Part shown: positions 3,669 to 63,159 of the stretch, piece by piece | How positions within the stretch are numbered: the first letter of the stretch is position 1 | Layout: each line of letters opens with the position of its first letter | Assembly (NCBI GenBank): GCA_027475525.1 | Contig: JAMWFC010000037.1 | Span: 1,121,419 to 1,185,418, forward strand | Reading direction: 5' to 3' | DNA from: Macrolepiota albuminosa | Taxonomy: Eukaryota > Basidiomycota > Agaricomycetes > Agaricales > Agaricaceae | DNA length: 64,000 nt | Program-made: the position numbers and the translations under genes | The notes under the pieces: model-generated | Database searches by the model: none | What the model saw: the letters and a program-made list of their open reading frames with translations, nothing else | Told to the model about the DNA's origin: nothing

Positions 3669-3860
3669 TGTAACATATAATATTTTAGTTAATTAATTAA
3701 TATACACTTATATTAATTAGTTATTACTACTTTACATACATGCTGGCTGCCTTACATAAGGCAGCCAATTTTACTGTCATACTTCGTAGTACTAGAATCG
3801 AATTATCGATCTGGTTCTGTCAGTGTGACTGTAAGGCTAACCCTACTTGACTTTGTTTCA
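3669..3860 (+). repeat. Element A 5' LTR
   Basis: 192 bp, TG...CA, identical to the 3' copy as far as I can compare. It holds a perfect 10-bp inverted repeat with a 2-nt loop at 3745-3766. Bases 3783-3802 are largely complementary to 3881-3900 just downstream of the LTR, a possible leader stem. Confidence 0.95.
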
Positions 3861-3965
3861 CTTTTTTGAACCTTTCAGGTTCAATTCTGATACTACGAAC
3901 GAAGACTACGTGTCTAGACCAATAGCCTAGACTGTGATTGCATCGAACAGTGCATCAACTTCTTT

Positions 3966-4119
3966 GACGCACGCTTCCGGAGTAATAGAGACGTATCAAC
4001 GCCTGATTGGATGGAGACCAATCAATCTGCTGAACCAACACGGACGCACGCTTCTGGAGTAATAGAGACGTATCAACGCCTGATTGGATGGAGACCAATC
4101 AATCTGCTGAACCAACACG
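3966..4119. repeat. 77-bp tandem duplication, one mismatch
   Basis: 3966-4042 and 4043-4119 differ only at 3978/4055 (C/T). It lies in the element A leader and duplicates the region of the likely gag start, so two candidate ATGs exist (4011 and 4088). Confidence 0.9.
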
Positions 4120-6832: not shown

Positions 6833-7357
6833 CCAGTTGGAGCAGCCAATGTGAAGGTGTATAAAGTACACCTTCGCAAGGCTCCAGAGAAGCTGGTACG
6901 GCCGGTTTTGAAGCATGAAGACAAAGAGTGTCTGGCGTCGTACGTTGAAGTGAATGGCCACAAGGCGTGGACATTGTGGGATTCAGGTAGTACGACTACT
7001 GGGGTGACACCTCAGTTTTGCCAAGTGCATGATATTTCTGTGAGTGAATTGAAGGAGCCATTACTCCTTCAATTGAGTACTGTGGGCAGCCAAGCTGCAG
7101 TACAGTTTGGTACGCAGGCAAGTATCACCTGTGCTAGATCAAGGTCGAAAGAGTACCTTGACGTGGCAAATTTTGATTGTTACGACATGATTATAGGCAT
7201 GCCGTATATGAGGAAGCACAAGGTTGTGCTTGACTTCACGAAAAATGAGATAGTGGTGGATGGCACCACCATTCCTGCAGTGCGAGTGACCATAGATAAT
7301 GGCGATGGACGTCTCCATCGACACCGTGCCATGGAGAAGAAGGTGCTAGTCAGGTGA
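6833..7357 (+). pseudogene. Element A aspartic protease domain
   Basis: Retropepsin-like protease that would cut the Gag-Pol polyprotein. The catalytic motif D-S-G-S-T is encoded at 6980-6994, and a hydrophobic IIGMP segment near 7192-7206 corresponds to the flap-distal strand of the fold. It is in the same frame as gag, with TGA stops at 6830 before it and 7355 and 7361 after it. The active-site Asp is present, unlike in element D. A linker of about 220 codons with further TGA/TAG (7691, 7718, 7913) connects it to RT. Confidence 0.8.
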
Positions 7358-7363
7358 CATTGA

Positions 7364-9490
7364 CTAGGCAGAGGCAAGAAACTGCCTACGGTGGAGGATG
7401 GAGAGGATGAGGAGCAAGCTTGTGCGAGCTTGCCAACGGATAGTCCTGCTGTGTTGATGCTGGAGAGTGAAGCTGTAGAGTACGAACATACTCTGAAGAG
7501 GGGGGAGAGCCCCAAGATGGAGTGTGAAAGGCAGGGTAAGCCTGAGGACAAGTGGCCTCAGCACACGGCAAGCACAGAGTGCCAGCCGACGTCGTCGCGA
7601 GTAAAGGTCGAGGACTTAGTAACGGGTGACAAACAAGGACTGATGGAGGACGAGGCATCCTCCACATATACGAATCGGTCAATCTGGGATTGACCGGTCC
7701 CTCATCCCACGTTTGAATAGGCGTTTGATCCACGAATGCCTGCTGAGTGGAATGAGCTAGTGGCCTCGATGTATGTGTGGAATGGACCACGATGGACGCT
7801 GAAGGAGGAGTCATATCGTCAGGCTAGTGATGACGAGATATCGCAACCAAGTGAGGTATTCTTCGACGGACTGTCGGTGACGTCGCGGAGAAGCAAAAAG
7901 GAAGTGCCTGTGTGACTGCACACGCCGGATGACAGTGAACTGAGGATTACTGCCCTCAGAGAGAAGTATGGCCACCCAGCCGTACAAGCAAAGCTGTCTG
8001 GGCATCCATGGAAGGATGTGGACCGGAAGGGCAAAGGTAAAACCAGTGGTTTTACGAAGGAGGACATTCTGGACCTACGCTCGCAGTGGCAGCAGGAATT
8101 TGGGGATATTCTGAATGGAACCAAGGAGGAGTTACCTCCTTGGTGTGAGGTCAATCATGAAATCAACCTTATTGATGAGAATAAGGTGTATAAATATCAT
8201 TTGCTGCGATGTCCAATGGCGCTACAGCAGCAGCTCCGAGACAAGACCAATCGGTACCTGAGAGCCCACTGGTGGGAGGCCCAACCGGCCTCCCAAGCTG
8301 CTCCGCTATTGTGCATTCTGAAGAAAGATGGTACATTGAGAACGGCGTTGGATGCTTGCCAACGCAACGACAACACCATAAAGGACGTGACGCCACTTCC
8401 GGATCAGGAAGTGATTCGAGAGGATGTGGCAAGAGCAAAGTTCAGGTCAAAAATTGACCTGACGGATGCTTATGAGCAAGTGAGAATTCGCTTGTCTGAT
8501 ATCCCGAAGACAGTGTTCTCGTTGATCACGGGAACATATGTGAGCAACATCATGCAGATAGGAGATTGTAATGCTCCTGCAACGTTTCAGAGGTTGATGA
8601 CCTCCATCTTCCGGGATGTTATCGGGAGGTTCGTCCATATATATTTGGATGACATATTCATATACTCCGATTCAATCAAAGAACACGAAGAGCATCTCCG
8701 TGTTATTTTCGAGCGACTGAGGTCTAATTTGCTGTACCTCAAGAGGAAGAAATGTGAACTATATGCTGAGACAGTAGATTGCCTCGGACATAAGATTGAC
8801 AGTCAGGGTATTCACCCTGACCAGGACAAAATTGATCGCATACGCGAATGGCATGTGCCTCGTAACTATAACGATGTGCAGAGATTCGTGGGACTAGTGA
8901 ACTATATTGGCAACTGTCTGCCTAATATAACAGCGTATACTGGACCTTTGATGTCCATCACGCAGAACGGAGCTCCATTCATATGGAGACCTATACACCA
9001 ACGCTGTTTTGAGATGATCAAGAGGATCTGCTCAAAGACGCCAGTCATTCGTCCCATAGACCCCAGACGTGATGAGCCGATTTGGCTCATCTGTGATGCC
9101 TCAAAGACCAGAGTAGGGGCAATGTATGGCCAGGGAAGTTCCTGGCAGAATTGTCGACCGGCTAGGTTCATGTCAAGGAAGTTCACCTCGGCCCAACAGA
9201 ATTATGCGGTCCATGAGCTCGAAATGCTGGCGATACTTGAGGCACTCCTCAAGTAGGAAGACAAATTGATGGGATATAAGATCCACATCATTATAGACCA
9301 TAAAGCACTTGAGTTCTTCAAAACTCAAGCAACGTTGTCCCCCCGGCAACGCCAGTGGATTGACTATATGTCTCGCTACAACTTTGACATCACATATGTC
9401 AAAGGCGAACTGAACAAGGTAGCTGACTGTCTCTTGAGGTATTTCGAGAGCGCTACAACTTTGACATCACATATGTCAAAGGCGAACTGA
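7364..9490 (+). pseudogene. pol: Element A reverse transcriptase and RNase H
   Basis: RT copies the element RNA and RNase H removes the template. RT motifs follow in order: LLCILKKDGTLR (about 8308-8343), IDLTDAYEQVR, DCNAPATFQ, and the catalytic Y-L-D-D at 8642-8653. RNase H begins near 9060 with LICDAS and includes HELEMLAILEA. The stop TAG at 9254 sits where relatives have Trp (ALLK-W-ED), so it is explained by TGG to TAG. The frame is the same as gag and protease. The 77-bp duplication at 9374-9527 then shifts the frame by two bases; removing it restores continuity into the integrase part. Confidence 0.85.
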
Positions 9491-9527
9491 ACAAGGTAGC
9501 TGACTGTCTCTTGAGGTATTTCGAGAG
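9374..9527. repeat. 77-bp exact tandem duplication inside RNase H
   Basis: 9374-9450 equals 9451-9527. It shifts the pol frame from coordinate phase 2 to phase 1, exactly what a 77-base insertion predicts. Confidence 0.92.
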
Positions 9528-11423
9528 CGATAGAGTTGGTGAACACCACAATACACATGATTATGTCAATGCGGATATTTGTATTGATCCACAGGACGAT
9601 GATCTTCCGTACCATCGCTACAAAGAGGTGAAGGAGCATGTGGTCGAGCTTCGTGCTATGCAAGCAACCGAGCTGCGACGCAGTCGACGACTGCAGGAGC
9701 GGCAAGAGGGGCGAGACATAGAAGCTGAGCAATTAGAGCAGGCTCAGCCAAAGGAGGTGACAATGCCACGCCAGGACGAGACTGGGAGCAGTCGTGGACT
9801 GTATGGCCACGACATTACGCTCGCTGATGCGTTATCGCCTACAGGAGAGTATTGTAACCCTCCTGTTCCTCAAACCGATGAGTACCTCTGGAAGGTACTG
9901 AGGGGCTATAGCCGTGATGCGTTCTACATGGAAGTCCGGCAGAACGCAAATTCCCACCCACGCTTCAGCGTGGATGAGAAAGGACTGGTCCGGATAATGA
10001 ATGTTTGAGGGCACGACGTGGTGTGCCTACCACGCGACCGAACATTAATCACGCAGGTTGTCACTCAAGCGCATGAGGTTGTTGGTCACTTTGGGACCAA
10101 CAAAACACTGGAATACCTGAGGCAATGGTACTGGTGGCCTCAGATGCAGAAAGAAGTGATGCAGTTCTGCCAGCGGTCAAAGACCAGCAATAGGAAGCCA
10201 GCAGGGAAGTTGCATTCCTTGCCCATTCCGACGAAGCCATGGGACTCCATTGGGATGGACTTTGTTGGTCCATTCCCCGAGTCCAAAGGTTATAACTACC
10301 TTTGGGTGGTTATTTGCCGGATGACTATTATGGTGCACTTAATACCGGTGCACACAACCATTACTGCGTCCGCATTATCCTGGCTTTATTTGAAGGAGAT
10401 TGTAAGGCTACATGGCCTTCCAAGTTCGATCGTAAGCAATCGAGACGCAAAGTTTATGTCTCATTGGTGGCGAGAACTCCACAAGCTCTTGGGAGCTAAG
10501 CTGCTCATGTCTACATTGTTTCATCCGCAGACGGATGGACAGACAGAGCGAGCAAATAGAAGTATTGCTCAGATCTTTCGTACGGTGGTCCGACCGGACC
10601 AACGTGACTGGGTAGATAGGATACCGCAGCAAATAGAAGTATTGCTCAGATCTTTCGTACGGTGGTCCGACCGGACCAACGTGACTGGGTAGATAGGATA
10701 CCGCTAACTGAGTTCGCGATCAACGCAAGTGTGTCAGAGACCACGAAATATGCGCCATTTGAGCTCAATGGAGGGTACATGCCCTCCATGCTGCACGAAC
10801 TGCAGACGGATGGAGTCGTTCACAAGGGGGTGAAGGACTTTGCACGGCAAGCATTGGAGAATCTAGCCAATGCACACGACACTATCATTGCCGCGCATGT
10901 TATACAGGCACGCCATGCAAATGATAGGCGGAGTGAGGAACCAGAGCTAACGCCTGGGATGTTAGTATACCTGTCAACGGAAAACTCGAATCTTCCGAAA
11001 GGAAGGGCGAGGAAGTTGTGTCCAAAATTTATTGGACCATACAAAGTCTTGGTCGTGGAACCAAGCACATCGAACTATGTTCTGGAGCTGCCTGCAGCTC
11101 TGCAAGCACGTCGGATTGTGCCTAAGTTTCATGTATCGTTACTTAGGCGATATAATGCAAGCGATGATGCTATGTTCCCTAATCGGGTGACACCCGAGCC
11201 ATATGACTTTGGTGCCAGTGACGAACAGGAATGGTTCCTCAAGGATATTCTAGGCCATTGGTGGCAGGGAGGAACGCACCTCGAGTTCGAGGTATGATGG
11301 AGTGCGGGTGATACGACATGGGAGTCGTATCACACTTGTGCCAAGTTGGCAGCGCTGGATTGGTACTTAGAACTGCAGGGTGTGAAGCGCCCAAATCAGC
11401 TTGCTAAGCGCTCACGTGCTTAG
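9511..11423 (+). pseudogene. Element A integrase with C-terminal chromodomain
   Basis: Integrase would insert the cDNA, and the chromodomain would guide it to modified histones. The HHCC zinc-binding region is near 10063-10190, but the second Cys of CxxC reads Ser. The catalytic core contains GMDFVGPFPES (first Asp) and DGQTERAN (Glu). The second Asp, normally in a VSDRD context, is Asn at about 10438, so catalysis should be lost. A TGA at 10006 and the 77-bp duplication at 10551-10704 break the frame. After the TGA at 11295 the frame continues as a chromodomain (W-S-A-G-D-T-T-W-E) ending at TAG 11421; that TGA occupies the Arg of the usual V-R-W and is best read as CGA to TGA. Confidence 0.8.
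10551..10704. repeat. 77-bp exact tandem duplication inside integrase
   Basis: 10551-10627 equals 10628-10704. The integrase frame resumes in the shifted phase after the second copy. Confidence 0.92.
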
Positions 11424-11729
11424 ATTGATGGCAGTGATAAGATGTAGGCCGGATCAGTCGGAGTTCGGATCGACTGATTAGCTGATTCGGATCGGATCAC
11501 AGTTGGTCTGGATAGATAAGATGGGATTGATCTATCTGATGAGATAATGCGGATTGTGATGCGGAGTTGGCGTTCGGATCAGGTTATGTAACCTGATGAT
11601 GGGGAATTTAGTGTGTTTTTTCCCACCGACACGTCGACATTTTCGTATTACCATGTCAGGTTATGTAACCTGATGATGGGGAATTTAGTGTGTTTTTTCC
11701 CACCGACACGTCGACATTTTCGTATTACC
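11424..11729 (+). other. Spacer between pol and ORF2 of element A
   Basis: About 230 bp of real sequence once the duplication is removed. It is rich in GGATC/GGATCA words around 11450-11580 and carries no open frame. A promoter or internal ribosome entry for ORF2 could lie here, but I see no clear motif. Confidence 0.5.
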
Positions 11730-11732
11730 ATG
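11579..11732. repeat. 77-bp exact tandem duplication upstream of ORF2
   Basis: 11579-11655 equals 11656-11732. Each copy ends at an ATG (11653 and 11730), so the apparent pair of starts is an artefact of the duplication. Confidence 0.92.
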
Positions 11733-12014
11733 TCGTACCCTTACCAGCGTACGACCAGTGAGCAGCAGCCTCAGAACCCACAGGGTTCTGGAGGAGGGGG
11801 GGATCGCCCCCAGCAAAACGTTCAGCAGTCTGTAACGACGCCGACTGTGGCGTCGTATCCAGTGGTGTCTCAGTTTGGGCAGAACCCAGCCCAATTTGGA
11901 CAACCTCCGCAGTTTTACCCACAGTTTTTCCAGATGCCATACTTCCCAGGACCAGCTGGTCCTGGACAGCAGATGGGAGGACAGGTTATGTGGAGAATGC
12001 CAATGCCGATGCAG

Positions 12015-12168
12015 CAGACGCAGACCCAGAGTGCAAGTACACTCCTTTCAGATGAGAAAGCACTAACTGCGCCACAGGTAGCACCCATGGACAGACGCAG
12101 ACCCAGAGTGCAAGTACACTCCTTTCAGATGAGAAAGCACTAACTGCGCCACAGGTAGCACCCATGGA
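12015..12168. repeat. 77-bp exact tandem duplication inside ORF2 of element A
   Basis: 12015-12091 equals 12092-12168. It shifts the ORF2 frame and accounts for the apparent early end at 12143. Confidence 0.92.
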
Positions 12169-13420
12169 CGTGGACGACAACGCGGGGCGTCAACAGCCAG
12201 TGAAGAGCGAGGTGGTGCAACCTCGACAACAACGAGAGAGGACGCCGCCCCCACAAGAGACATATAGAAGAGACCGGAGATGATCACCTCCGAGGAGTAC
12301 CGGGGCACAAGGAGGCGGGCCTTGGGATGTAGTAGGGCACAGACGGGATGAACCGTCAGTGAGGACGCAGACTCGAGGTCAACCCCGATCTCGAACACCA
12401 CCCCGACGAGCATCTCTGTCACCTCGTCGTGCACCATCTCCACAGCGCTTATCATACGCAGAGAAAGGGAAAGGAAAGGAGATTGGGACGCCATCAGAGG
12501 TGTTGGATCCTCAGGCAGAGGCAGTCTGGAGACGCCTCATATCTGCCAGCCAGCGAGTGCCACTGGAGTCCGCGTTTTTAGCAGATCCGGTGGCTCAGGT
12601 GGTAATTACGGGTCTGCTGGATGAGATTGTTATGCTGCAGCAGCGTAACAACAATACCATTAAAACTTTCACGAACGCTATGAAGAAGCGTCCGTCGTCA
12701 TCGGAGGAGCTACCTGAGGCAAAACGCCTCAGAGCGCGTGATGCAGGACCGGAAGTTGGGGTGCGGGAATCTGGAGAACTCACTCCGAGCCCGGCTGAGT
12801 TACATGACAAGCTGGTGGAGGTTGACAATAGTTTACGAGGACTGTCCTCGTCAACACATGCACCTCCCCAGCAGTCAGGGGCGAAGCGGCAGGATGAGGT
12901 GGTCCTGTCGGAAGTGGAGTTTGGAGCAGATGTCCCGCGAGGAGCAGACAGAGTTGTGATGCGGTTTGGAGCAGTGGTGCAGTTTGAGGCACCACTGAGG
13001 GCGTATGCATCCGCAGTTCCCATAAAGGACATGAGGACGGACGCCGAGGTCGAAGGGCGACTTTTAACGTTGGCTGCGCTCGGTCTGAATGAACCGAGTG
13101 ACGGGAGTGATTATGGGGAGTCATCAGATGAGACCCCCTCAGAAGGAGAAACCCCCACTAAACGCCAAGTGCGTTTAGACAAGAAACGCAAAAAGGAGGC
13201 TCGGAGGAAGCACAAGGCCGCCCGGCAGGCAAAGGTCGATAAAGACCGGGAGGAGCAGGCCACAGGCCGTATTCCTGATGGCCTCGGGGTGTTTGTCAGC
13301 AGGACGTTGGTGGAGCGGTCCAACTGGTTCTACAGCGGGGCACTTGACCACCATTTCTACTACTCCCGGCTCACCAACACGGTATTTGTGAGTGATGAAG
13401 CCTTGGCCGTGAAGACGCAC

Positions 13421-13574
13421 GAGGAAGAAAAGGGAGAGAGGTATTACCATACCTCAAAGGAGTTGAACTGAGTGGTACCGAGGGGATTCCCGATGAAGAG
13501 GAAGAAAAGGGAGAGAGGTATTACCATACCTCAAAGGAGTTGAACTGAGTGGTACCGAGGGGATTCCCGATGAA
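13421..13574. repeat. 77-bp exact tandem duplication inside ORF2 of element A
   Basis: 13421-13497 equals 13498-13574. The frame of ORF2 continues in the shifted phase after it. Confidence 0.92.
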
Positions 13575-14915
13575 TCCCCAGCAGTTGCAAAAGCTTTATG
13601 AGCTTTCGCAGAACAAGTTCACCTCAGTGTCTCTACGCACTGAGGCCTATTATCTGTTGCGCAAGTTTCAGCGCATCAGCATTAACTATTATACGTTGGT
13701 GAGGGATAGGACGATGACTCTGGTGTGTTCACCAGAGTACGAGCACATTTTGCCCCCTCTGGATCTATCATCCCATCACATGAACATCACGGTCATGCCG
13801 ACCCCAGACGGGTACCTGCGATGGAAGGACCGAGCCAGAAGACCATTTTTTACGCTTTCCGGGTTTGATTCCGAAGGTGTATGTTTCACCTTCGATCTGG
13901 ACAAGCTGGCGCAGAACGTACTTTACTTCTGTCAGCCAGGAATGATGAAGTCAGTGTACGGCATTGCAGTGGATCGAGCGTATCGCATTCACTGGCGTAC
14001 TCTCCTGGGCCACGCCTTGACGCGTGGATTGTCCCCTTTGGGAAGAGCTCGTGGACGGTTTGCAAGGCTGTTGGCCTTGATTCTGGCGCATCCCGGGTTG
14101 TATCGTGAGGCGGTTGCTGATTACGACGCCGCCAACCCTAGTACCCCCTTCGAACCCATGAGCTGGACTGATGTCCAGTTCTGACCCCCATATTTTGATG
14201 CGGCTAGTGCCGTCAACATCACCGATGCTGACGTGCTTTGTGCCATGATAGCCAACCGTGTACCTCTAGAGTGGGTAGACCACGCCTATACTTTCGGCGT
14301 GGTCTACCTCAAAAATCAATTCCTTGCAGCTACAGCCTCCATTGACCAGTTCCGCGAGGTCGACGATGAACGCCATCGTCGACTGGACATCTATGGAGAG
14401 CCCCCAGCCATCACGCGGTGGGATGATTGGCGACTGCCCACCGATGATGATATGATTTGTCTTCACACCCTCCTCGCCCGCGAATTCAATCAAGGTCATG
14501 AGTACCTTGAAAGTGGACTATATTATCCGGTGGGAATGAACCCCAACCATCGAGACTTATGGCAACACCGCTCTCAACATGGGCCATATCCCCCCTCTCC
14601 GTCTCACCCTTCAACATCAGTTCAGGCTCCTACCGCCTCAACATTGTCGGGCCCCGTCGCCTCATCATCCTCGGTTAACACCAACAATGAGATGAGGATC
14701 GATACAGTCCATGAGTTGTCGCGTCCGCCGTCTGTGTAACCCTTGTAGGCGGCTCATCTCTTTTTCAATTCATACTGTCGGTTAACGTCGGCGTTGTATT
14801 TTTTGACAGATGACCTGGACGTTTTCGAGCCGTGGAGGACCAGAGTGCCTCCACATTGACCTACTTAGTGACACGGACAAATTGTCCCTCTTTACATCGA
14901 GACTGATTACCAGTC

Positions 14916-14928
14916 TCAAAGGGGGGCA
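14916..14928 (+). promoter_or_regulatory. Element A polypurine tract
   Basis: The purine run AAAGGGGGG ends immediately before the TG of the 3' LTR at 14929, the expected place for plus-strand DNA priming. Confidence 0.85.
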
Positions 14929-15120
14929 TGTAACATATAATATTTTAGTTAATTAATTAATATACACTTATATTAATTAGTTATTACTACTTTACATACA
15001 TGCTGGCTGCCTTACATAAGGCAGCCAATTTTACTGTCATACTTCGTAGTACTAGAATCGAATTATCGATCTGGTTCTGTCAGTGTGACTGTAAGGCTAA
15101 CCCTACTTGACTTTGTTTCA
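14929..15120 (+). repeat. Element A 3' LTR
   Basis: 192 bp, matching the 5' LTR base for base, followed directly by the TSD CAGAC at 15121-15125. Confidence 0.95.
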
Positions 15121-15125
15121 CAGAC

Positions 15126-25453: not shown

Positions 25454-26352
25454 TGTCACGACCCCTCCCCTCCAGACCCACCCCGGGACACCCCCGGAAC
25501 ACCCTCTGGGACCCTCCCTCCGACCCCACAAGACACGCCCCACCATCACGACCGCCAACACTGCCATCACATGCATCAAGGACCGCCATCAGCCGCCACC
25601 AGCCCCGATCAACGATCAGATCACGCGAATTGTTCCTGGCCATCATGCATCACGCATCACAACTCCCTCCGTGCCAATTGATCGCGCGCCCCACATGCGC
25701 GATCCCGGTATACAGCCCCTGCCGCTACTCAATGACCCCCGGAACCCATNNNNNNNNNNNNNNNNNNNNNNNNNNNNNNNNNNNNNNNNNNNNNNNNNNN
25801 NNNNNNNNNNNNNNNNNNNNNNNNNNNNNNNNNNNNNNNNNNNNNNNNNATCCCGGTATACAGCCCCTGCCGCTACTCAATGACCCCCGGAACCCATCCC
25901 AGACACCCCGGAGCCCCGAGACCCGGTCCCGTAGTACTTATAGCACAGTTCCCTGTTGTATTCGGTAGTCTTGATATTACATACACTGTTACTTTGCTTT
26001 ACTTGGATTGTTGCGTGCCCTCTATTTGACTGGTACGCATTGACTGGCACGCTTGACTGGCACGCTTGGATATTCGCGTGCTCTAAGACTGGTACGCACT
26101 TCGCGACTTTAACTTACTAACTTGGTCTCGTCTTAGAACCTCCGGTTCACGACTCGACCCCCACCCGAACTCCCCAGTTACCACCACCCAAAACCCCCGG
26201 ACTAAGTCCCCTCTTCCGGGATTTCCCTGTCCACGTCTTGAACCCCGGAGTCCTAGCCCCGGAGTTCCAGACACCCGAGTATCCGTGGGTCAAGTCCGCA
26301 TTGTAAGGGCGATTGCTTTCCCAGAAAGCCCCCGACTCAGCGGAACCTGACA
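25454..26352 (-). repeat. Solo LTR of family C nested in element B, spanning an N gap
   Basis: Sequence from 25454 to 26352 is the reverse complement of the element C LTR, ending GGAACCTGACA. It is flanked by near-identical 5-mers CCTAC (25449-25453) and CCTAT (26353-26357), a likely TSD. Subtracting the 100 N and the 48 bases repeated on both sides of the gap leaves 751 bp, against 752 for the full element C LTRs, so nothing appears to be missing. It sits just upstream of the antisense gene start. Confidence 0.9.
25702..25897. other. 100-N gap flanked by the same 48 bases
   Basis: 25702-25749 and 25850-25897 are identical and flank N at 25750-25849. The contigs overlap here, so the gap is a scaffolding placeholder. 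Confidence 0.9.
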
Positions 26353-26475: not shown

Positions 26476-28383
26476 ATGTCGCGCGAACAGACGCCTCTCC
26501 GCTCCCCAACCCCTCCCCCGGCCGGGGATAACTCCCTGGCCGCCTGGGAAGAGTACGATGTGCGTCGGAGCGCTTACGAGGGACGCCGGGACTGCCGGCA
26601 CATTGAGGAACTTGCCCGTGGGTATTCCGGCGAGGCTCTCACGATACTGCTGACGTTATCCCATTGCAGGGAGGATCTCTCAAACTTCGGACCCGGCACC
26701 GGTCGCCAGGCCCTCGACAGTCCAGTCCCCCTCCATCCCCGTCCCTTTGGTCCGAGTCGAGCGGCGACCCACCCTCAGCATGGGCCAAGTGTGGGAGGTT
26801 CCGGTGGTACAGCGGATCCCCCAAGCCCAGGTGACGGCGGAGCAGTTTGCGACGGCTCAGGGGCGATATCAGGGGCCGCCGGAGCGAGCTTGGTGCGAGG
26901 CAGCGGGTTCGGTGCGTGGGTCTGCCTTCCGAAAGGTTTCTGCTGACCCCTGTAGTGTGTGATGTGTGCGCGTCGGGGGGTGTCTTGTGTCTTCGAGGAG
27001 CCTACGGCAGGGTCCCGCCGAGATACCTCCATGTGCGTGGCGTGCCGCCTTCGACACGAGAGGTGCTTGGTGGTGTTGGCGTGGCGGGCGCGCTGCATGG
27101 CCCGGGAGCAGGGATGGGACAAAGATTGGGTGATGGAGAAGCTGCGGGAGAGCCCCGGGACCAGGGCCCGAGCCAGGGGGTCTCCGGAGGCTGGGGCTGA
27201 GGGGGTTAGAGTCGCACGTCGTCGCCCCTGCGGGCGTCGTGCGGTCGCACCACGGGTTGTTCCGGAGTCGTCGCCTTCAGAGTCGCCCCCGGCCCGGCGG
27301 GTGGATAAGGGCAAGCGACGGACTTGAGAGTCGTTGGACGAGGAGGACGCGCCCCCTGCCCATCGTCGCCGAGGGTCCCCCGGGGCTGAGGTCGACAAGG
27401 ACAAGCGACGGGCCTGAGACTCGTCGGATGAGGACGACGTGCCCCCTGCCCAACGTCGCCGAGGGTCTCCAGGGATTGGGGTCGCGGGTCCTTCGAGCCT
27501 CCCGAGACGAGTGTTTTCCCCCGCCTCTGGTTGTCCGGTGTCTGGCCTATCACGCGTACCCGGGGCAGAGGAGGACCTTGCTGCCTCCCGCTGTCAGCTC
27601 AAGGAGGCCGGTGCTCGGGAGCGCCATCTGCTGTCGTGACTCCGGGACATTGTCGAGGAGGGCCAGCAGGAGCGGCAGGCGAGGGAGGGGTTGCAGGAGG
27701 AGATGGGCGTGGTCGTGCGGGCCTGGGAGGTCTTGGAGGTGGAGGTGGCGGGCTTGAGGGCCCGCTTGGAGCAAGGGGACGGGGTAGGGTCAGGACAGGT
27801 GGTGTCGGAGACGTGGGAGGCAGAGTTGAGGGAGTTGCTGGGGAGGGTGGAGGGAGCCCAGGCGACCCTGGTGCATCGCCGGGGCTGGCTGGTGGGGAGC
27901 GTGGCAGCCGCCCGTGGCAAGGCTATGCGTGAGTGACCTTGCACGCGTCCTGGGGTTCCGGCTGATCCTGTTTTAGGTTGGGCTCGAGAACACCATCTCC
28001 TGCTGGACGGAGGGGCTTCGGCGTATGCCTTCGTCCAGCAGGGTCTTGCAGCAACGCCGGGGCTTTCGTCGACGGAGGTGAATCGAGGGTTGAAGCAGTG
28101 GGGACGATTACTGGCGGCCCACCGGAGGCGCAATGTAATTGTTTCGGGGTCGTGGGTGGAGATGGCAACGGATGCGGGGGAGCCCCTCCCCTCATACGAG
28201 GAGCGGGTGGCCGTGGTCCTGTTGTCGATGGAGGCTGCGATGGGGGCTCCCCCAGCGGCCCCGGAGTCGGGGGTGTCGAGGGAGGCGTCCGGTGGCGTCG
28301 GGGAGTGCCGGAGGACCTTTGAGGTCGTAGGGGGCGTCTTGGTAGTCTTTTTTCTTCTTTTTCTTCTTGGGCATTGTATCTAG
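26476..28383 (+). pseudogene. Element B antisense gene: Zn2Cys6-like coiled-coil protein, four exons
   Basis: Exons 26476-26617, 26670-26911, 26956-27928 and 27977-28383 (GT-AG introns of 52, 44 and 48 nt) join to 588 codons, with only three in-frame TGA, each explicable as CGA to TGA. The start ATGTCGCG is shared with the element C gene. Exon 3 opens with C-x2-C-x6-C, a 15-residue loop, then C-x2-C-x6-C: the fungal Zn2Cys6 spacing with a longer loop. A 28-residue acidic/basic unit is repeated twice (about 27298-27473), then a Leu/Glu-rich coiled coil (about 27640-27900). The last exon begins W-A-R-E-H and includes LLAAHRRRN. It converges on the pol gene end. Inferred role: DNA binding; function unknown. 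Intron positions and phases match element C. Confidence 0.82.
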
Positions 28384-50392: not shown

Positions 50393-51221
50393 AGTTTACA
50401 TCAAGTGCAAACTTTTGGATTATAAAGTACCTCTAAAAGGAGTGCATAAGTTGTGGGAGAAAGTGGTCAAAGAGTGAAATGAAATACTATCAGAGATATG
50501 CCAAAGCCTCATAAAGAGCATGCCTAGAAGGATCAAAGCAGTTATAAAGGCAAATGGGGACTGTATTAAGTATACATTAAATATGAAAATTAGAGTAGGT
50601 CAAAAAACTGCCTCAATATTGAATATTTAATTTAATTTACTGATTAGTGAGTTTTTGTACAAATCACATAATTTACATATACATCATTATAAAGCCAGGA
50701 TGCCTCTGCAGTTGAAGAGTTTGAATAGCACCAAAACCAGTCACATGTGAACATGACTGTGTGAATTGAAGAGTAGAGGCGACAAGCGACGAGTAGCTAC
50801 ACTATTATACAGGGTGAGGTGGGAGGGTTGACGAAAATACAAATGAATAGAAGTACAGTAATAGAATACTATCACAAAAAAGTGAGTAAGGGGCCGATGC
50901 GACCTTCCCATCACGTACTTACTTTAGATATTTTGCTTTTGAGATGGCGCAATGCAAAATGAGTTTTATGGGGTGAAATATCTAAGGTGAGAGGTGAGCC
51001 CAGCTCACCGGGTGGCCATAAGAAAAGGTGTCTCACCAGTGAAACGTGGGGTGAAGCAGAATAGTACAAGTAATATAGTATAAATAGAAGACTGGAAAGA
51101 AGAGAAGAACATGGTGAGACAACCTGGCAATGTGAGAGAGCGCAAAGACGCTCACCTGGGCAGCTGAGGGGAAAGGAGGCGGACGGAGGAGAGGGCCACC
51201 CAGAAAGTCTCAGACCGCATG
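50393..51221. other. Non-coding region before element C
   Basis: No gene. It contains one copy of a 97-bp repeat (50703-50799). An inverted pair TTAGATATTTT / AAATATCTAA spans about 50926-50996, followed by a short hairpin GGTGAG-CCCAG-CTCACC. It ends with the element C TSD copy GCATG (51217-51221). Confidence 0.55.
50703..50799 (+). repeat. 97-bp repeat, copy 1
   Basis: Matches 62922-63018 with a few transitions and no length change (CCTCTGCAGTTGAAGAG ... GACGAGTAGCTA). Both are in the same orientation on either side of element C. Confidence 0.9.
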
Positions 51222-51973
51222 TGTCAGGTTCCGCTGAGTCGGGGGCCTTCTGGGAAAGCGATCGCCCTTACAATGCGGACTTGTCCTACGGATACTCGGG
51301 TGTCTGGAACTCCAGGGCTAGGACTCCGGGGTTCAAGACGTGGACAGGGGAATCCCGGGGAAGGGGATTTGGTCCGGGGGTTTTGGGTGGTAAGTAGCTG
51401 GGGAGTTCGGGTGGGGGTCGAGTCGTGAACCGGAGGTTCTAAGACGAGACCAAGTTAGCAAATTTAAGTCGCAAAGTGCGTACCAATCTTAGAGCATGCA
51501 AGTATTCAAGCGTGCCAGTCAAAAGCGTGCCAGTCAATGCATACCAGTCAAGCAGAGGGCACGCAACAATCCAAGTAAAGCAATGTAACAGTGTATGTAA
51601 TATCAAGACTGGCGAATACAACAGGGAACTATGCTATAAGTACTACGGGGCCGGGTCTCGGGGTTCCGGGATGTCTGGGATGGGTTCCGGGGGTTATTGA
51701 GTAGCGGCAGGGGCTGCATACCGGGATCGCGCGTGTGGGGCGCGCGATCAATTGGCGTGGATGGAGCCGTGATGCGTGATGCACAATGGCTGGAACGAGT
51801 CGTGTGATCCGATCGTTGATCGGGGCTGGTGACGGCTGATGGCGGTCCTTGATGCGCATGATGGTGGTGTCGGCGGTCATGATGGCGGGGCGTGTCCTGT
51901 GGGGTCGGAGGGAGGTCCCGGAGGGTGTTCCGGGGGTGTCCCGGGGTGGGCCCAGAGGGGAGGGGTCATGACA
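51222..51973 (-). repeat. Element C 3' LTR
   Basis: 752 bp. Plus-strand TAATATCAAGACT at 51598-51610 is the self-priming counterpart. The polypurine tract (plus-strand pyrimidines TCACCCCCCCCCT) starts at 51974, directly inside the LTR. Confidence 0.95.
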
Positions 51974-52101
51974 TCACCCCCCCCTCAGCGCTGAGACCCT
52001 CCAAGGCGCGCGTAGCCGGTGGTTCGGACCGGGGTTCAACCGTGGGATCTGGCACCTGACTTGCCACGTATTGAAAAAAAATTTTACTGTCAAGTTCAAA
52101 C

Positions 52102-53765
52102 ATGTCACGTACGCCAACCCATTCCCCGACGCCCCCACAAACTAACGAGGTTGCGCCCCTCATGGCTTGGGAAGCCCGGGACGTGCGATACCGAGCCCGC
52201 CTCGACCAGGAGCGCATGGTGGAGCTTGCCCAGCAACGTGAGTGTCTTCCCGCGTCGTCCGCCTATCCTACTGACCTTCCTATTTCAGAACAACTCAGCA
52301 ATCCTGTCGCGGGTCCCAGCCGGCACCCAGAGCCTGCTCCCGATGCGGGTCCCAGTGTTGTTCCGGAGGCCCGCCTGAGTCGTCCCGTGCCTACCTTTGC
52401 GCGGATGACTGTCTGCCCTCCCCGCCCTCAACCCCCTCCCTGCCCCAGGCTACCTGCCCCTCGTTTCCGTCGTTCCGGGATGGCGGTGGGGGCCGTATCC
52501 GAAGTTCCAGAGGGTCAGCGCGTTGCATGGGCGGACGCGACGCAGGAGCTATTTGGGGAGGCCCTGGAGAGGCCCCGGGGTTTACCCACCCACGCCTGGT
52601 GCGTGAGTAATGGACCGGTGAGTGTTTCCTTACCTCGGGTCTCGTCGCTAACTTTGGCGCAGTGTCTTCACTGCGCTCGACGAACGGTCCCCTGCCTGTT
52701 CGAGGTCCCAGGCCCCTCGTCCCGCCGGGACACGTCCATGTGTGAGGCATGCTGCCTCAACCATGAGCGATGTTCTGTGTCGGCGCTGTGGAGGGCGCGC
52801 TGCGTCTCCTGGGAGCAGGGGTGGCCGCTGGGGGGGGTCACCCGGAGGATGGGGGTCGAGGAGTGGGATTGGGTCGCGGAGCCGGTGGAGGAGGCGGCCG
52901 CGGCGGGTCCAGGGGGGTCGGGGAGCGGGGGTGCCATTTGGGTAGGGGGCCGGGGCCGGCCCGTGGTCCTCATCACGCGCCAAGTGACCCGGGCCGGGGG
53001 AAGCTGGGAGGGGCGCGGGGGGCGCCCTGACAAGGAGAAGCGGCGGGCGTTGCCAAGCCCTTCCCCAGGGCCGTCGAAGAGGGCGCGTCTGCCCTCCAAG
53101 ACCCCGCCCCCAGTTTCCCTGCCACGCCTCTCCCCGGTGGTGTTTTCGCCTCTGTCAGGGCGGACGTGGGGGTCCTGCTGGAGTGCCCAGGGGAGTCCGA
53201 GGAGGCCGACGTGCGGAGGAAGTTGGAGGCGCGTCGACAGCTGGAGGAGGCCCGAACCGCTCGGGGGGAGGCGGAGGCGGAGCTGGAGGCGTTGCGGGTG
53301 AGGTTGGAGCAGGGAGTGGGGATCCCGGAGAGGGCCCCCTCGGGACAGGAGATGATGGAGGCTCTGCGCCGTGACGTGGTGGTTGCGCGCATGGCATCTC
53401 TTAGTAAGTCCTCTGTCTCCGGATTACTTCATCTGCTAACGTCTCCAGGCTGGGCCCGGGAGCATCGTCTGCTCCTGGATGGGGTTGCCGCGGCACTGGC
53501 CTCGCTACAGGAGGGGCAGTGCCCGGAGGTGACGACCCCCGGGGTAGAGCGCGGGCTTGACCTCCTGGGGCGATTAGTGGTCGCCCATCGGCGGAGGAAC
53601 ATACCTGCCCCGGAGTCCTGGTTCGAGCGAGTGTTGGACGAGGGTGAGCCCCTGGCCGAGGAAGTGTGGCGGGAGCATGGTCCAGAGGAGGTGGGGGAGG
53701 ATTTCAGGGGGTGGCCGAGGGGAAGGAAGGGCGAGGGGAGTCACGGTCCGGGGCCCCAGCGTTAG
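52102..53765 (+). pseudogene. Element C antisense gene: Zn2Cys6-like coiled-coil protein
   Basis: It starts ATGTCACG, 128 bases inside the 3' LTR, and ends TAG 53763. Introns are 52238-52288, 52618-52662 and 53404-53448, all GTGAGT or GTAAGT to AG with CTGAC or CTAAC branch-like words. Their phases (1, 0, 1) and positions match element B. The cluster C-L-H-C-x6-C, 15-residue loop, C-E-A-C-x6-C opens exon 3. A Gly/Arg-rich region and a coiled coil (LEEARTARGEAEAELEALR) follow. The last exon reads W-A-R-E-H-R-L-L-L and VVAHRRRN. One frame change near 53150 inside exon 3 is either a small indel or an unrecognised intron. Likely a DNA-binding accessory protein; whether it serves the element or the host is unknown. 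Confidence 0.8.
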
Positions 53766-54065
53766 GGGTGGCGTTTCGACGTTTTTTTCTGTTTTTCTCC
53801 TTCGTCCGTTGTGTTTCTTGTCCCGGCCTAGAACTGTAGATAGTGTAGCTATAGTAAAATGTATATACCTGTCCTTTTGAAGTAAGTAAGAAGGGAGTCG
53901 TGTAAGTAATGAGGCGGGAAAGCTGAGAAAAGACCTTGCCCCGACTCCGGAGCGCTACTTATGAGAAAAGGGTACTAAAAAAGGGGGTAAGTTCTAGAAA
54001 GGGAAAGTAGAAAGTATACATGGGAGTTGAATCCCTACTGAGCCCAGAGGCGGGGGTTACGCCCA

Positions 54066-55664
54066 CTACTGCCGTCTGTGAGTCCTGCACCCGGGAAGGT
54101 CGTTTCCCAGGCGCCGCTGTTGGAAGTCCCAGAGTTTGTTGAGGGCGCCTTTGAGGTTTCGGCGCGGTTCCCAAGTGTCGTATTCCAGGCCGTATCCCTT
54201 CCACCGTACGAGGAAGTGGGGTCGTCCACGAATATCCTGGGAGTCGAGGATGTCTTCAACTTTGTAGTGGTACTCGTCCTCGACCTCGACCGGGGGAGGG
54301 GGCTCGGGGCGTCGCTCGGGGAAAGGATCCGGGAGGTGTCGTTCCAGGAGGCGGACGTGGAATACCGGGTGCAGACCTTTTAGTCCCGGAGGGAGCTCAA
54401 TCTTGTAGGCGTGGGATGAGACCTTCTTCAATATTTTGAACGGGCCGAGACGCTTGTGATCGAGTTTTGGGGAGGGCCGGCGGGTGCGGAGGTGTCGTCG
54501 ATCTAACCATACCTTTGTTCCGGGGGTCCAGTCGGGGGTGTCTTCCCGTTTCCGGTCGGCGTGTTTCACGTAGGCCCGGTTTGCAGTGTCGATCTCTTCC
54601 CGAAGAAACTCATGAAGGGATTGGAGATTCCGGGTGACCTCATAGGCGGCGTGCGACGTTGTCCTGGAGCGAGAGTGTTAGTCGGGGGTGGTATCCCTTG
54701 TTGGCAAAGAAAGGAGATACCCCGGTGGCAGAGTGCGGCGTGTTGTTGTAGGTGAACTCGGCCAGGGGGAGCTCGGCGCGCCAGTCGTCCTGCAAGTAGT
54801 TGACGTACAGTCGGAGGTACTGCTCGAGAGACTGGTTGACCCTTTTGGTTTGGCCGTCGGTTTTGGGGTGGTAGGCGGTAGAGAGGTTAGTCTTCACTTC
54901 AAGTGCCTTACACAGGGAAGTCCAAAACTTGGACACGAAGAGGGGGCCACGGTCGGAGACGATGTCGTCCAGGAGTCCATGTTTGGCAAAGACGTGCTCA
55001 AGGAACAGCCGGGCGAAGTCTGGGGCGGTGTCCGTGGTGTGGCAGGGTAGGAAAATGCCCTGTTTGGTTGGCTTACACACAACAACGAGGATGGCATCGA
55101 ACCCTTCAGATTCTGGGAGTTCGACAATGTGGTCCAGAGATATGGAGGACCAGGGGCGTCGTCCAACCGGCAGGGGTTTCAGGAGTCCATACGGTCGGTG
55201 TCGGGGGACCTTGGCCCGGAGGCAGGGCTCGCATAATCGAATGTAGCGGGTCACGTCCTTTTTCAATCCTGGCCAAAAGTAAGTCCGGGAGATAAGCTGG
55301 AGGGTCTTACGTATCCCAGGGTGTCCCCGGAGCTTGTGGTCGTGGTGCTGGCGCAGGACGTCCGGGAGATAAGCTGGAGGGTCTTACGTATCCCAGGGTG
55401 TCCCCGGAGCTTGTGGTCGTGGTGCTGGCGCAGGACATCGTAGCGGAGTCGGGCGTGATCCGGGATGTAAATGCGGCCGTCCCGGAGGAGGAGTTTCTCG
55501 TCGGGGGACAAGGAAAAGGCGGGGTCCCGGTTGGTTCCGTTGGGAGGGTTGCGGGGGTCATGATCGGCAAAATACTTGTCTCGGGGGGCGCGGCGAATCT
55601 GGCTCAGGGTTCGTTCGTCGTTTAAGATCAGTACGGCATTCAAATGTTCGGGAGGGATCACCAC
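54066..55664 (-). pseudogene. Element C integrase with chromodomain, inactive
   Basis: HHCC zinc region (HDHKLRGHPG...CEPCLRAK), then SLDHIVELPESEG and IVSDRGPLF with both Asp present. The catalytic Glu of DGQTERVN reads Lys (DGQT-K-RVN, GAA to AAA), so strand transfer should be lost. A frame change near 54660 precedes the C-terminal domain ([31 protein letters not shown]). A complete chromodomain ([30 protein letters not shown]) ends at TAG 54066. The 77-bp duplication 55283-55436 interrupts the zinc region. Compared with B this chromodomain is uninterrupted. Confidence 0.85.
55283..55436. repeat. 77-bp exact tandem duplication in element C integrase
   Basis: 55283-55359 equals 55360-55436. 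Confidence 0.92.
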
Positions 55665-55995: not shown

Positions 55996-57995
55996 GGGTT
56001 TAGCTCCAAGTCGTCCCGGGCGGTACTGGATCGTGAAGTCGTACTCTGAGAGGATCTCGGACCACCGGGCCTGCCGTCGACTAAGTTGCTTGGTTGTGGT
56101 GAAGTACTGCAGGTTGTTGTGATCCGAGTAGACCTGAATCCGGTGCCGGGCTCCCTCGAGGTAGGCTTGCCATTGCTTGAAGGCTTCGACGATGGCGAGG
56201 AGCTCCTTGTTGTAGATGTCGTAGTTGAGCTCGGCGTCGATCATGGACTGGGTGTAGAAGGCGACTGGCCGGGGCTCCCCACCATCAGGCTCCATCTGTG
56301 AGAGAATCCCGGCGATGGCATAGTCGGAGGCGTCAAGGCGACTGGCCGGGGCTCCCCACCATCAGGCTCCATCTGTGAGAGAATCCCGGCGATGGCATAG
56401 TCGAAGGTGTCGCATTCTAGGATAATTGGGAGGGTCGGGTCGTAGTGCCGGAGTACGGAGGCGGCTGTGAAAGCCTCCTTGAGCAGGTTAAAGACGCTCT
56501 GGCACTTACTGTCCCAGTTCCAGGCGACGTCCTTGCGCGTGAGCCGGTTGAGGGGTTTCGTGATACCGGAGTAGTTATCTATGAACCTCCGGTAGAAGTT
56601 AGCGAAACCCAAGAAAGATTGTACTTCCTTGACGTTCCGGGGCTGCGGCCAGTTGACGATGGCCTCGACCTTGTGGGGGTCCATGCGGACGCCGTTTGGG
56701 GATACGATGACGCCAAGATACTCAACCTCTTCCGTATGGAATGAACACTTCTCGGGCTTGGCGTGGAGGTTGTGCTCCCGGAGGCGTTCGAGGACTTGCC
56801 GGACATGCTTCTGGTGGTCCTCCGGTGAGTCGGAATAAATGAGGATGTCGTCCAGGTAGACGATCACGAAGACATCACTCATGTCGTGGAAAATGTCATT
56901 CATGAAGTATTGGAACGTGGCGGGGGAGTTAGTCATTCCGAAAGGCATTACAAGGTACTCAAACAGACCATACCGCGTGCGGAACACGGTTTTCCACTCG
57001 TGTCCCGGGGCGATGCGGACATTGTTGTAACCAGAGCGGAGGTCGATTTTTGTGTAAACCTTGGCACTGCGGAGTCGATCGACCAGATTGCTGATGAGCG
57101 GGAGCGGATAGCGGTTCTTCTTGGTGATCTTATTGAGTCCCTGGTAGTCGACGCAGAGCCGGAGCAAGCCGTCCTTCTTCTTGGCGAATAGAACCGGGGC
57201 TCCGGCAGCAGAGGCGGAGGGTCAGATGAATCCCTTACCGAGCATTTTGTCGAGGTAGTCCTTGAGGGCCCGGAGTTCGACCTCCGACATATTGTATACT
57301 TTGCCAAAAGAGGGGGTGGCTCCTTCCTCGAGGTCGATGGTGTGGTCATAGGGGCGGTGCGGGGGGATTTCCTTGGCGTCTCCTTCGGAGAATACGTCAG
57401 TGAACTTGTGATACTCCAGAGGAACTACTTCTCGGAGGATCTGCTCCTCGGACTTCCTTTCCGGGGAAATAGCGTCCCCTCGTAGATATTCTTCCGGGAG
57501 AGATGGCGAGGTGTGTAGCTGAAACGTGGGTGTTCCATCTTTCATGAGGCGGGCGAAGGGGGCGGCTCCGATGATCCTAATGTTGAGTGCGTTCAGGTCG
57601 ATTGGGGTCGCGGGCGCATCAGCCGGAGCAGGTTTGACGCATGTCTGAGACCGGTCAGGGTAGTTCGGCCCCTTGTACTTGTTCCGAGGAATGTTTGGGG
57701 GCCGATTAGGGGCCTTGCGGTCTCGGACTGGCGTGGGGGGTGAATGCGTGAGGGGCGCGGCAGTCGTCCTGGGGGTGTCGGGTGTCGGGTCGCTTCCTAG
57801 GGCTCGGAGGTGTACGGCGGTCGAGGGGTGGTCTTCGGGTCTCAGGAATGTCATGGTGAGTGTCCTCCAATCGATGTTGGGGTTCGTGTCGCGCAGCCAG
57901 GGTAGTCCCAGCACCATCAGGGTCGACTCGTGAAGTCGCGTGACCAGGAAGTCGGAGGTGAATTTGTAGTCGTTGTCCAGGGTCACGCGTTTCAA
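55830..57995 (-). pseudogene. pol: Element C reverse transcriptase and RNase H
   Basis: The frame from 57995 carries the end of PR2 ([23 protein letters not shown]) and a linker. RT follows: [31 protein letters not shown], then TGA at 57222 where element B has Arg (GFI-R-ASI). [39 protein letters not shown] and the YLDD motif are intact. RNase H begins [14 protein letters not shown], in which the second acidic-rich position differs from B (D-T-F versus D-A-S). It continues past the 77-bp duplication 56258-56411 with YNKELLAIVEAFKQW and YSDHNNLQYF. Confidence 0.87.
56258..56411. repeat. 77-bp tandem duplication in element C RNase H, two mismatches
   Basis: 56258-56334 and 56335-56411; the differences are GGAGGCGTC versus GAAGGTGTC near the ends. 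Confidence 0.9.
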
Positions 57996-61992: not shown

Positions 61993-62005
61993 AGTCTTGA
62001 TATTA
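61993..62005 (-). promoter_or_regulatory. Element C self-complementary primer-binding site
   Basis: In element sense TAATATCAAGACT begins immediately after the 5' LTR. All thirteen bases are complementary to AGTCTTGATATTA in the LTR (plus-strand 62382-62394). This predicts RNA starting near 62394 and Tf1-style self-priming. Confidence 0.85.
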
Positions 62006-62757
62006 TGTCAGGTTCCACTGAGTCGGGGGCCTTCTGGGAAAGCGATCGCCCTTACAATGCGGACTTGTCCTACGGATACTCGGGTGTCTGGAACTCCAGG
62101 GCTAGGACTCCGGGGTTCAAGACGTGGACAGGGGAATCCTGGGGAAGGGGATTTGGTCTGGGGGTTTTGGGTGGTAAGTAGCTGGGGAGTTCGGGTGGGG
62201 GTCGAGTCGTGAACCAGAGGTTCTAAGATAAGACCAAGTTAGCAAATTTAAGTCGTGAAGTGCGTACCAATCTTAGAGCACGCAAGTATTCAAGCGTGCC
62301 AGTCAAAAGCGTGCCAGTCAATGCGTACCAGTCAAGCAGAGGGCACGCAACAATCCAAGTAAAGCAATGTAACAGTGTATGTAATATCAAGACTGGCGAA
62401 TACAACAGGGAACTATGCTATAAGTACTACGGGGCCGGGTCTCGGGGTTCCGGGATGTCTGGGATGGGTTCCGGGGGTTATTGAGTAGCGGCAGAGGCTG
62501 CATACCGGGATCGTGCGTGTGGGGTGCGCGATCAATTGGCACGGATGGAGCCGTGATGCGTGATGCGCAATGGCTGGAACGAGTCGTGTGATCCGATCGT
62601 TGATCGGGGCTGGTGACGGCTGATGGCGGTCCTTGATGCGCATGATGGTGGTGTCGGCGGTCATGATGGCGGGGCATGTCCTGTGGGGTCGGAGGGAGGT
62701 CCCGGAGGGTGTTCTGGGGGTGTTCCGGGGTGGGCCCGGAGGGGAGGGGTCGTGACA
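62006..62757 (-). repeat. Element C 5' LTR
   Basis: 752 bp, same length as the 3' copy with scattered transitions; followed by the TSD GCATG at 62758-62762. Confidence 0.95.
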
Positions 62758-62762
62758 GCATG

Positions 62763-63159
62763 CCATGCTGACCACACCATGGCATCTGCCAGGCTCTGGC
62801 ACCGTGCCGTGATCGGCTCACGATCTTAGAAGAGAAAGGTGTGGGAAAGATTGGAGAAACTCCTGAGCACGCAGAGGCCTCCGAAAACGCTCACAGCCTT
62901 TGGCGCTCGCCTTTATGCCGACCTCTGCAGTTGAAGAGTTTGAATAGCACCAAAACCAGTCACGTGTGAATGTGACTGCGTGAATTGAAGAGTAGAGGTG
63001 ACAAGCGACGAGTAGCTAAGAAGCAGCTGTTGAGGAGAGAGGTGGGGTGGTGGTGGTGATAAGATGTCGTGGGAGCTGAGCCGAAGAGGAAGGAAAGGGC
63101 ATCATGAATGAGAAGAATGATGGAGACGTTCATAGACAGCGTGAATACGCACGAGTGTG
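62763..63159. other. Region between element C and the recombinase gene
   Basis: No gene. It contains copy 2 of the 97-bp repeat and the 3' flank of the minus-strand recombinase gene. Confidence 0.5.
62922..63018 (+). repeat. 97-bp repeat, copy 2
   Basis: Aligns without gaps to 50703-50799. Before element C inserted, the two copies were only about 680 bp apart. Confidence 0.9.

Follow-up and report, generated by a model that had tools for sequence, protein, structure and literature searches.

Why should an LTR retrotransposon carry what is predicted to be a spliced gene on the strand opposite to gag-pol, and does that gene matter as a protein? The question is raised by the window analyzed here, a 64,000-nucleotide stretch of the Macrolepiota albuminosa genome (contig JAMWFC010000037.1), in which a four-exon gene (52102-53765, plus strand) lies between pol and the 3′ LTR of a retrotransposon, element C, and is convergent with pol (Table 1). 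Most antisense genes reported so far from LTR retrotransposons are those of plants.

On the minus strand lies element C, a complete insertion with LTR ends TGTCA..TGACA. Its pol has the order RT-RNase H-integrase, with Pfam matches to RVT_1, RT_RNaseH_2 and Integrase_H2C2, and because it terminates in SH3_Tf2-1 and a chromodomain (Chromo, E 2.3e-12), element C is a chromovirus-type Ty3/Gypsy retrotransposon; the TG..CA LTRs with a 5-bp target site duplication (TSD) and the pol order with chromodomain are both those of a chromovirus. Gag gave no recognisable Pfam match. Separately, the 13 bases that adjoin the 5′ LTR on its internal side (61993-62005) are complementary to LTR positions 364-376 (sense), a site lying by eye about 28 bases past a TATA-like sequence; the 12-mer occurred in none of 2000 shuffled LTRs, and the arrangement resembles Tf1-type self-priming. 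The identical exact self-complementarity test gave no match in element B, a second element of the window. A 97-bp repeat (95% identical; 50703-50799 and 62922-63018) flanks element C on the outside and is not a target duplication. At the protein level, a further element, A (3669-15121), has an RT with only some 37% identity to the RT of C.

Table 1 Features of elements B and C in the window
Feature	Position	Strand	Details
Antisense gene of element B	26476-28330 (end uncertain)	+	Exons 26476-26617, 26670-26911, 26956-27928, 27977-about 28330
Introns of B gene	26618-26669, 26912-26955, 27929-27976	+	Phases 1, 0, 1 (by arithmetic)
Solo LTR of family C, between 3′ LTR and antisense gene of B	25454-26352	+	Flanks CCTAC/CCTAT; 100-N assembly gap inside
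C gene, exon 1	52102-52237	+	136 nt
C gene, intron 1	52238-52288	+	GT..AG, 51 nt, phase 1
C gene, exon 2	52289-52617	+	329 nt, Pro-rich, ends AWCVSNGP
C gene, intron 2	52618-52662	+	GT..AG, 45 nt, phase 0; open in frame in the C copy
C gene, exon 3	52663-53403	+	Six-Cys cluster CX2CX6CX15CX2CX6C, Gly-rich part, basic motifs, probable coiled coil
C gene, intron 3	53404-53448	+	GT..AG, 45 nt, phase 1
C gene, exon 4	53449-53765	+	Starts W-A-R-E-H; helical prediction at low confidence; stop TAG 53763-53765
LTRs of element C	51222-51973 (3′), 62006-62757 (5′)	-	752 bp each, 97.2% identical
TSD of element C	51217-51221 (left), 62758-62762 (right)		GCATG, 5 bp
Spacer, inner 3′ LTR end (polypurine-tract side) to antisense-gene ATG	51974-52101	+	128 bp, read from sequence
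Chromodomain PF00385, integrase C-terminus of C	54114-54266	-	Coordinates by arithmetic
Integrase H2C2 and core of C	54640-55383	-	Pfam
Reverse transcriptase and RNase H start of C	56412-57221	-
Exchanged cassette (coiled coil, intron 3, exon 4, 3′ side)	~53100-53950 vs L015; ~53550-53950 vs L024	+	The shorter stretch applies to L024

Introns 1 and 2 were located in all 20 C-group copies, the window copy included, and intron 3 in 18 of them; exon 4 is unmatched in the two copies without intron 3. One splice donor among the 20 copies is GC, and the automatic intron edges in copy L011 are off by a few bases. Over 19 C-group copies, divergence is 0.26-0.43 in intron cores, 0.035-0.144 in the first six bases and 0-0.035 in the last three, and divergence at codon position 3 exceeds that at positions 1 and 2 by a factor of 1.85-3.5. 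Intron 2 measures 45 or 48 nt in the C group and can be read in frame in many copies, so that only the 44-nt introns of the homologues in element B and in a third family, F, compel splicing at this point. The window copy of C has a frame change inside exon 3 (between about 53031 and 53301) and that of B has in-frame TGAs, so that neither encodes the whole protein. The window also holds eleven exact tandem duplications with a unit of exactly 77 bp (at 195, 9374, 10551, 11579, 12015, 13421, 28367, 55283, 55672, 59243 and 61701), with similar ones at other loci. These are very likely an assembly artefact of a k-mer size of 77 and, since several fall inside elements A and C, some frame breaks in A and C may not be real.

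The original prediction held that C carries the homologue of the B gene in the same place, with introns at phases 1, 0 and 1, the same Cys spacing and the same W-A-R-E-H start of exon 4, and within an element that has an LTR sequence of its own. All of this is borne out: apart from a C-family solo LTR inserted in B, a single B-C match reaches into an LTR, 172 bp long, 78% identical and spanning the LTR/internal edge. The solo LTR lies upstream of the antisense gene in an orientation opposite to that of B, and the mismatch between its flanks is a CpG-type change; in two other B copies (L040, L043) the LTR end leads to the gene start without it.

Family F provides the third homologue, which is AT-richer, shows about 50% identity over the Cys domain and has its introns 2 and 3 in the same positions. 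It was found in a multi-copy repeat of tens of copies (L047, L048 and the flanks L053-L056). Two 7.5-kb stretches of family F gave no RT match, and neither an RT-like long ORF nor LTRs were found in 19.5 kb; terminal inverted repeats were considered and rejected, since an apparent 44-bp match is a TAA/TTA microsatellite. With a homologue in a repeat lacking detected RT or LTRs, the gene is not bound to the C/B type of element.

We searched the genome (100.1 Mb, 129 contigs) for further copies and obtained at least 250 C-group gene loci, as the union of four lists of gene matches of at most 150 rows each (two lists whole, 33 of the 150 rows of a third, judged by eye to be new, and 40 of the 41 rows of a fourth), with rows up to 900 bp apart on the same strand counted as one locus. 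Among the best 150 of 3365 RT candidates, 112 have a listed gene downstream in convergent orientation (median distance 3.9 kb), none has a gene solely in another arrangement, and 38 have no listed gene. Two of these 38 were read, and both carry a gene of a diverged subfamily (a 379-bp LTR stretch 94% identical to C; matched exon parts 74-84%), so that at neither of them is the gene lacking. Counted from the gene side, 112 of the 250 listed loci have a convergent listed RT, two are arranged otherwise and for 136 no RT is listed; among the 150 gene loci of one list alone, 67 have a listed RT within 10 kb, 65 of those convergent. On contigs C59 (about 229 kb) and C114 (about 146 kb and 351 kb), pairs of matches recur at constant offsets; these are large duplicated blocks, either real or unmerged haplotypes, and they inflate the copy counts.

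We examined 20 C-group copies, the first 20 of 150 listed gene loci with 8 kb each, and modelled the gene in 18. Nine of the 18 have an uninterrupted ORF of 522-539 aa, amounting to three distinct proteins: seven (L014-L016, L018-L021) belong to one subfamily and encode the same protein, and the others are L013 and L028. A further ten copies and six copies of F were selected for long open frames, so these samples lean to well-kept copies.

That the protein is under selection had been argued from its retention in two diverged LTR families, and codon comparisons now bear this out. The NG86 dN/dS has a median of 0.24 (range 0.16-0.59; 189 pairs of 20 sequences, 19 from the C group plus B), and by exon, from 1 to 4, it is 0.15, 0.23, 0.30 and 0.18; near-duplicate or unmodelled copies (L013, L014, L016-L022, L027) and L031, in which the start motif was unmatched, were left aside. 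Within the C group (171 or 170 pairs) the true frame gives 0.24, the codon-mirrored antisense frame 0.43 and four wrong frames 1.25-1.55. Coding on the other strand was rejected, the mirrored frame having 4.6 stops per copy against 0.5 in the true frame; a chance ORF in GC-rich DNA is ruled out by the introns together with the frame-specific dN/dS. For exon 3 of B (8 copies, 27 pairs) the values are 0.28 in the true frame, 0.37 mirrored and 1.34-1.49 in the other frames, a smaller true-to-mirrored contrast than in the C group. The RT of ten C-group elements gives 0.12, and 0.21 mirrored (45 pairs). Family F, with 0.47 against 0.59-0.96 in wrong frames (6 copies, 15 pairs), provides weak evidence. 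Pairwise NG86 is rough for copies that are partly dead, recombining and in some cases chosen for long frames, while the contrast between frames is large. Taken together, the codon comparisons support the view that purifying selection maintains the antisense protein.

These values also bear on the suggestion that the antisense transcript matters and the protein little, with convergent transcription yielding dsRNA and small RNAs by which the element is silenced or its activity tuned. The convergent layout at 112 of the best 150 RT loci would suit it, and antisense RNA roles are discussed for plant elements in parts of PMC7264820. Set against this are the frame-specific dN/dS, the conserved splice ends and the conserved Cys residues, which show selection on the protein, and the position of the gene, whose end leaves about 300 bp to the pol stop (54066), with no overlap between its exons and pol. 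We consider this reading most improbable, and the transcript as the sole explanation is already disfavoured by the selection on the protein.

An alternative named with the original prediction is capture of the gene by a recent recombination between B and C. Per site, B and C differ by 0.43-0.46 in the gene and by 0.22 in the RT, so there was no recent swap between the families, and that scenario is rejected; judged by these distances, B and C are old relatives. The same data weigh on the proposal that the gene is a captured host gene riding as a passenger. Fungal genomes have many Zn2Cys6 genes, and a homologue sits in the non-LTR-looking repeat F, both of which would favour capture; yet the gene is old, constrained, and in the same place at 112 of the best 150 RT loci as well as at both of the two others read. 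We find the passenger proposal very unlikely, and whatever its origin, the gene is not a passenger now.

The predicted protein comprises a conserved N-terminal part, the Pro-rich exon 2, the Cys cluster, a Gly-rich stretch, basic motifs resembling nuclear localization signals (DKGKRRASPSP/KRAR), a probable coiled coil (weak Pfam and PDB coiled-coil matches) and a C-terminal part. When 24 chosen copies from families B, C and F are aligned, 18 columns of the Cys block prove invariant, among them W-x-A-x-C and Q-G-W, which follow the cluster. Zn_clus is the commonest Pfam match (22 of 24 members, best E 0.0086) and is partial; the PF00172 gathering cut-off of 21 bits was not reached, member 1 scoring 11.8 bits over 14 of 39 profile positions. 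Zn2Cys6 factors characteristically have two half-clusters, basic residues and a following coiled coil, with a canonical pattern of CX2CX6CX(5-12)CX2CX6-8C. The antisense protein shares the two conserved CX2CX6C halves, the basic residues and the coiled coil after them, and differs in a 15-residue linker that exceeds the canonical range (in the B, C and F copies read), in its sub-cut-off Pfam scores and in the extra conserved W-x-A-x-C..QGW block. An AlphaFold model of the Cys domain places a helix at each CxxC at moderate confidence (pLDDT 73), and one of the C-terminal part is helical at low confidence (pLDDT 62). Foldseek of the Cys-domain model returned no significant PDB match and no Zn-cluster fold; a PDB sequence search with the whole profile gave weak coiled-coil matches, and one with the Cys domain gave none. 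The cluster thus resembles Zn2Cys6 by sequence pattern, and to identify it as Zn2Cys6 would go beyond the evidence.

Relatives are scarce. A search of 5.8 billion proteins returned a single one, P0001, 52% identical over 72% of the query. The three-family alignment used against proteins returned none, a search that low-complexity words may crowd and whose length limits leave P0001 outside; the Cys region alone as query yielded no relative among 10 candidates, and no relative was confirmed in the viral contigs searched.

A structural or replication accessory role, as a Gag partner or in nuclear import or integration targeting, was also weighed. Cys clusters occur in nucleic-acid chaperones too, and the C-terminal cassette described below could contact Gag. 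The Cys spacing is, however, unlike that of CCHC knuckles, Zn_clus is the commonest match, and the motifs resembling nuclear localization signals with the probable coiled coil suit a nuclear dimer. An accessory function seems unlikely to us on these features.

The original prediction also suggested a defined two-gene architecture that it did not recognise as a named group, which holds in part: the kind is known from plant antisense ORFs (aORFs) and from brtn of Botrytis, while searches of open-access papers listed neither this variant nor any antisense retrotransposon gene that is spliced or from a basidiomycete. The word "antisense" is absent from the main text of a survey of fungal LTR retrotransposons (PMC3248453). 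Plant aORF-3R genes (Grande gene23, RIRE2, Retand/TRP28) are antisense genes between pol and the 3′ LTR, kept across copies and suspected to be nuclear or DNA-binding, with a function given as not established in portions of two reports (PMC7264820, PMC11963269). The gene of element C shares this layout: it lies on the strand opposite to gag-pol, in the interval from pol to the 3′ LTR, and its coding sequence is conserved. It differs from the plant aORFs in its predicted four-exon splicing, its six-Cys cluster and its chromodomain elements; Retand is a non-chromovirus with TRP28 (PF04195), whereas the element C gene had no Pfam match to PF04195 at E up to 1, 5 and 10 (whole proteins in one scan only). 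In fungi, Boty of Botrytis cinerea is a Gypsy element with a chromodomain and an extra gene, brtn, which is antisense according to the title of Zhao et al. 2011 as cited in passages of PMC8365987 and PMC4227169. The likeness to brtn is by description only, and its host is an ascomycete.

By domain resemblance and analogy, we think it rather probable that this is the second gene of a chromovirus-type Ty3/Gypsy element and encodes a nuclear, DNA-binding regulator that acts in trans on the transcription or silencing of its own family. With introns on the antisense strand, the gene would need an antisense promoter of its own, situated within the 3′ LTR or beside it, and its transcript would then be spliced. 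The introns would be retained through retrotransposition because the sense genomic RNA holds them in antisense, where they are unspliceable; the layout is an example of how introns can persist in a retrotransposon. The protein would be nuclear by way of its basic motifs, would dimerise through the coiled coil and would contact DNA through the Zn2Cys6-like cluster, and the dimer would in this way control, in trans, how its own family of elements is transcribed or silenced. The abundance of the gene, its uninterrupted copies and its conserved introns make expression and DNA binding directly testable.

Such regulation could have either sign. HBZ of HTLV-1 is antisense, near the 3′ LTR and spliced, and is a nuclear regulator with a coiled-coil dimerisation part that damps sense transcription. 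By analogy, the antisense protein could be an HBZ-like repressor or copy-number control factor, whose odds overlap with those of the regulator explanation. The layout is similar (antisense, near the 3′ LTR, predicted to be spliced, nuclear-looking, with a coiled coil), and parts of the plant aORF papers draw the HBZ comparison (PMC7264820, PMC11963269), the latter also giving the nuclear localisation of HBZ. The likeness is one of layout only: HBZ is a bZIP protein of a retrovirus, and our protein has a Cys cluster and no Pfam match to bZIP. Hundreds of copies also count against strong self-limitation, though not decisively. We regard a repressor as possible, if on the unlikely side, and slightly favour an activator or anti-silencing factor over it. 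VANDAL elements are Arabidopsis DNA transposons, unlike the LTR element C. They provide a parallel in VANC, a transposon-encoded anti-silencing protein whose targets have diverged between families, as described in part of PMC5735166. CpG to TpG changes are in excess relative to L015 in six of nine copies (ratio 1.5-2.4) and absent or slight in three (L012, L024 and L025; ratio 0.6-1.2); the window C copy has 0.135 against 0.041 for the reverse change, and window B compared with L041 has 0.115 against 0.023. This excess fits a methylating host, in which an anti-silencing role would be natural but is unproven.

A new and unexpected result concerns the C-terminal half of the protein. Recombination was found among C-group elements, mainly in the 3′ half of the antisense gene: over 10 copies, the correlation with RT distance falls from r 0.77 for exons 1-2 to 0.48 for exon 3 and -0.05 for exon 4, and the median dS (10 copies, 45 pairs; 36 for the coiled coil) is 0.19 for the RT, 0.18 for exons 1-2 and 0.11 for the Cys part, as against 0.76 for the coiled coil and 0.74 for exon 4. 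Between L013 and L015, both with full ORFs, LTR windows are 97-99% identical except one at 86%, the leader is 92% identical, and exons 1-2 with the Cys part are 97-100% identical; identity then drops to 70-77% over 750 bp to past the stop, and the last two windows stand at 86% and 97%. As read from these alignments, a coiled-coil/exon-4 cassette of about 750 bp has been exchanged between elements that are mostly 97-100% identical around it. The dN/dS of exon 4, near 0.18, points to exchange between old, constrained versions and not to decay. We infer that it probably came about by template switching during reverse transcription.

Such exchange suggests that varied C-termini are maintained on a constant, putatively DNA-binding head, which would be unexpected of a passenger gene. 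As a decidedly tentative extension of the regulator reading, the antisense protein might set a "compatibility class" of the element, in that lineages would retain one DNA-binding head and LTR while a live lineage would replace its coiled-coil/C-terminal cassette through recombination. If this were true, a cassette swap would stop the regulator from pairing with, or being poisoned by, proteins made by its decayed relatives, which number in the hundreds, or would let it escape a host factor, and the retrotransposon would hold a module-swapping self/non-self system with a logic like that of immunity-region exchange in temperate phages. The exchange thereby offers a testable account of the means by which rival lineages of a single element may escape mutual interference. 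The pol of window C is 90-97% identical to that of L015, and L029, L033 and L038, which have a different N-terminal part, share their exon 4 cluster with L012 and L013.
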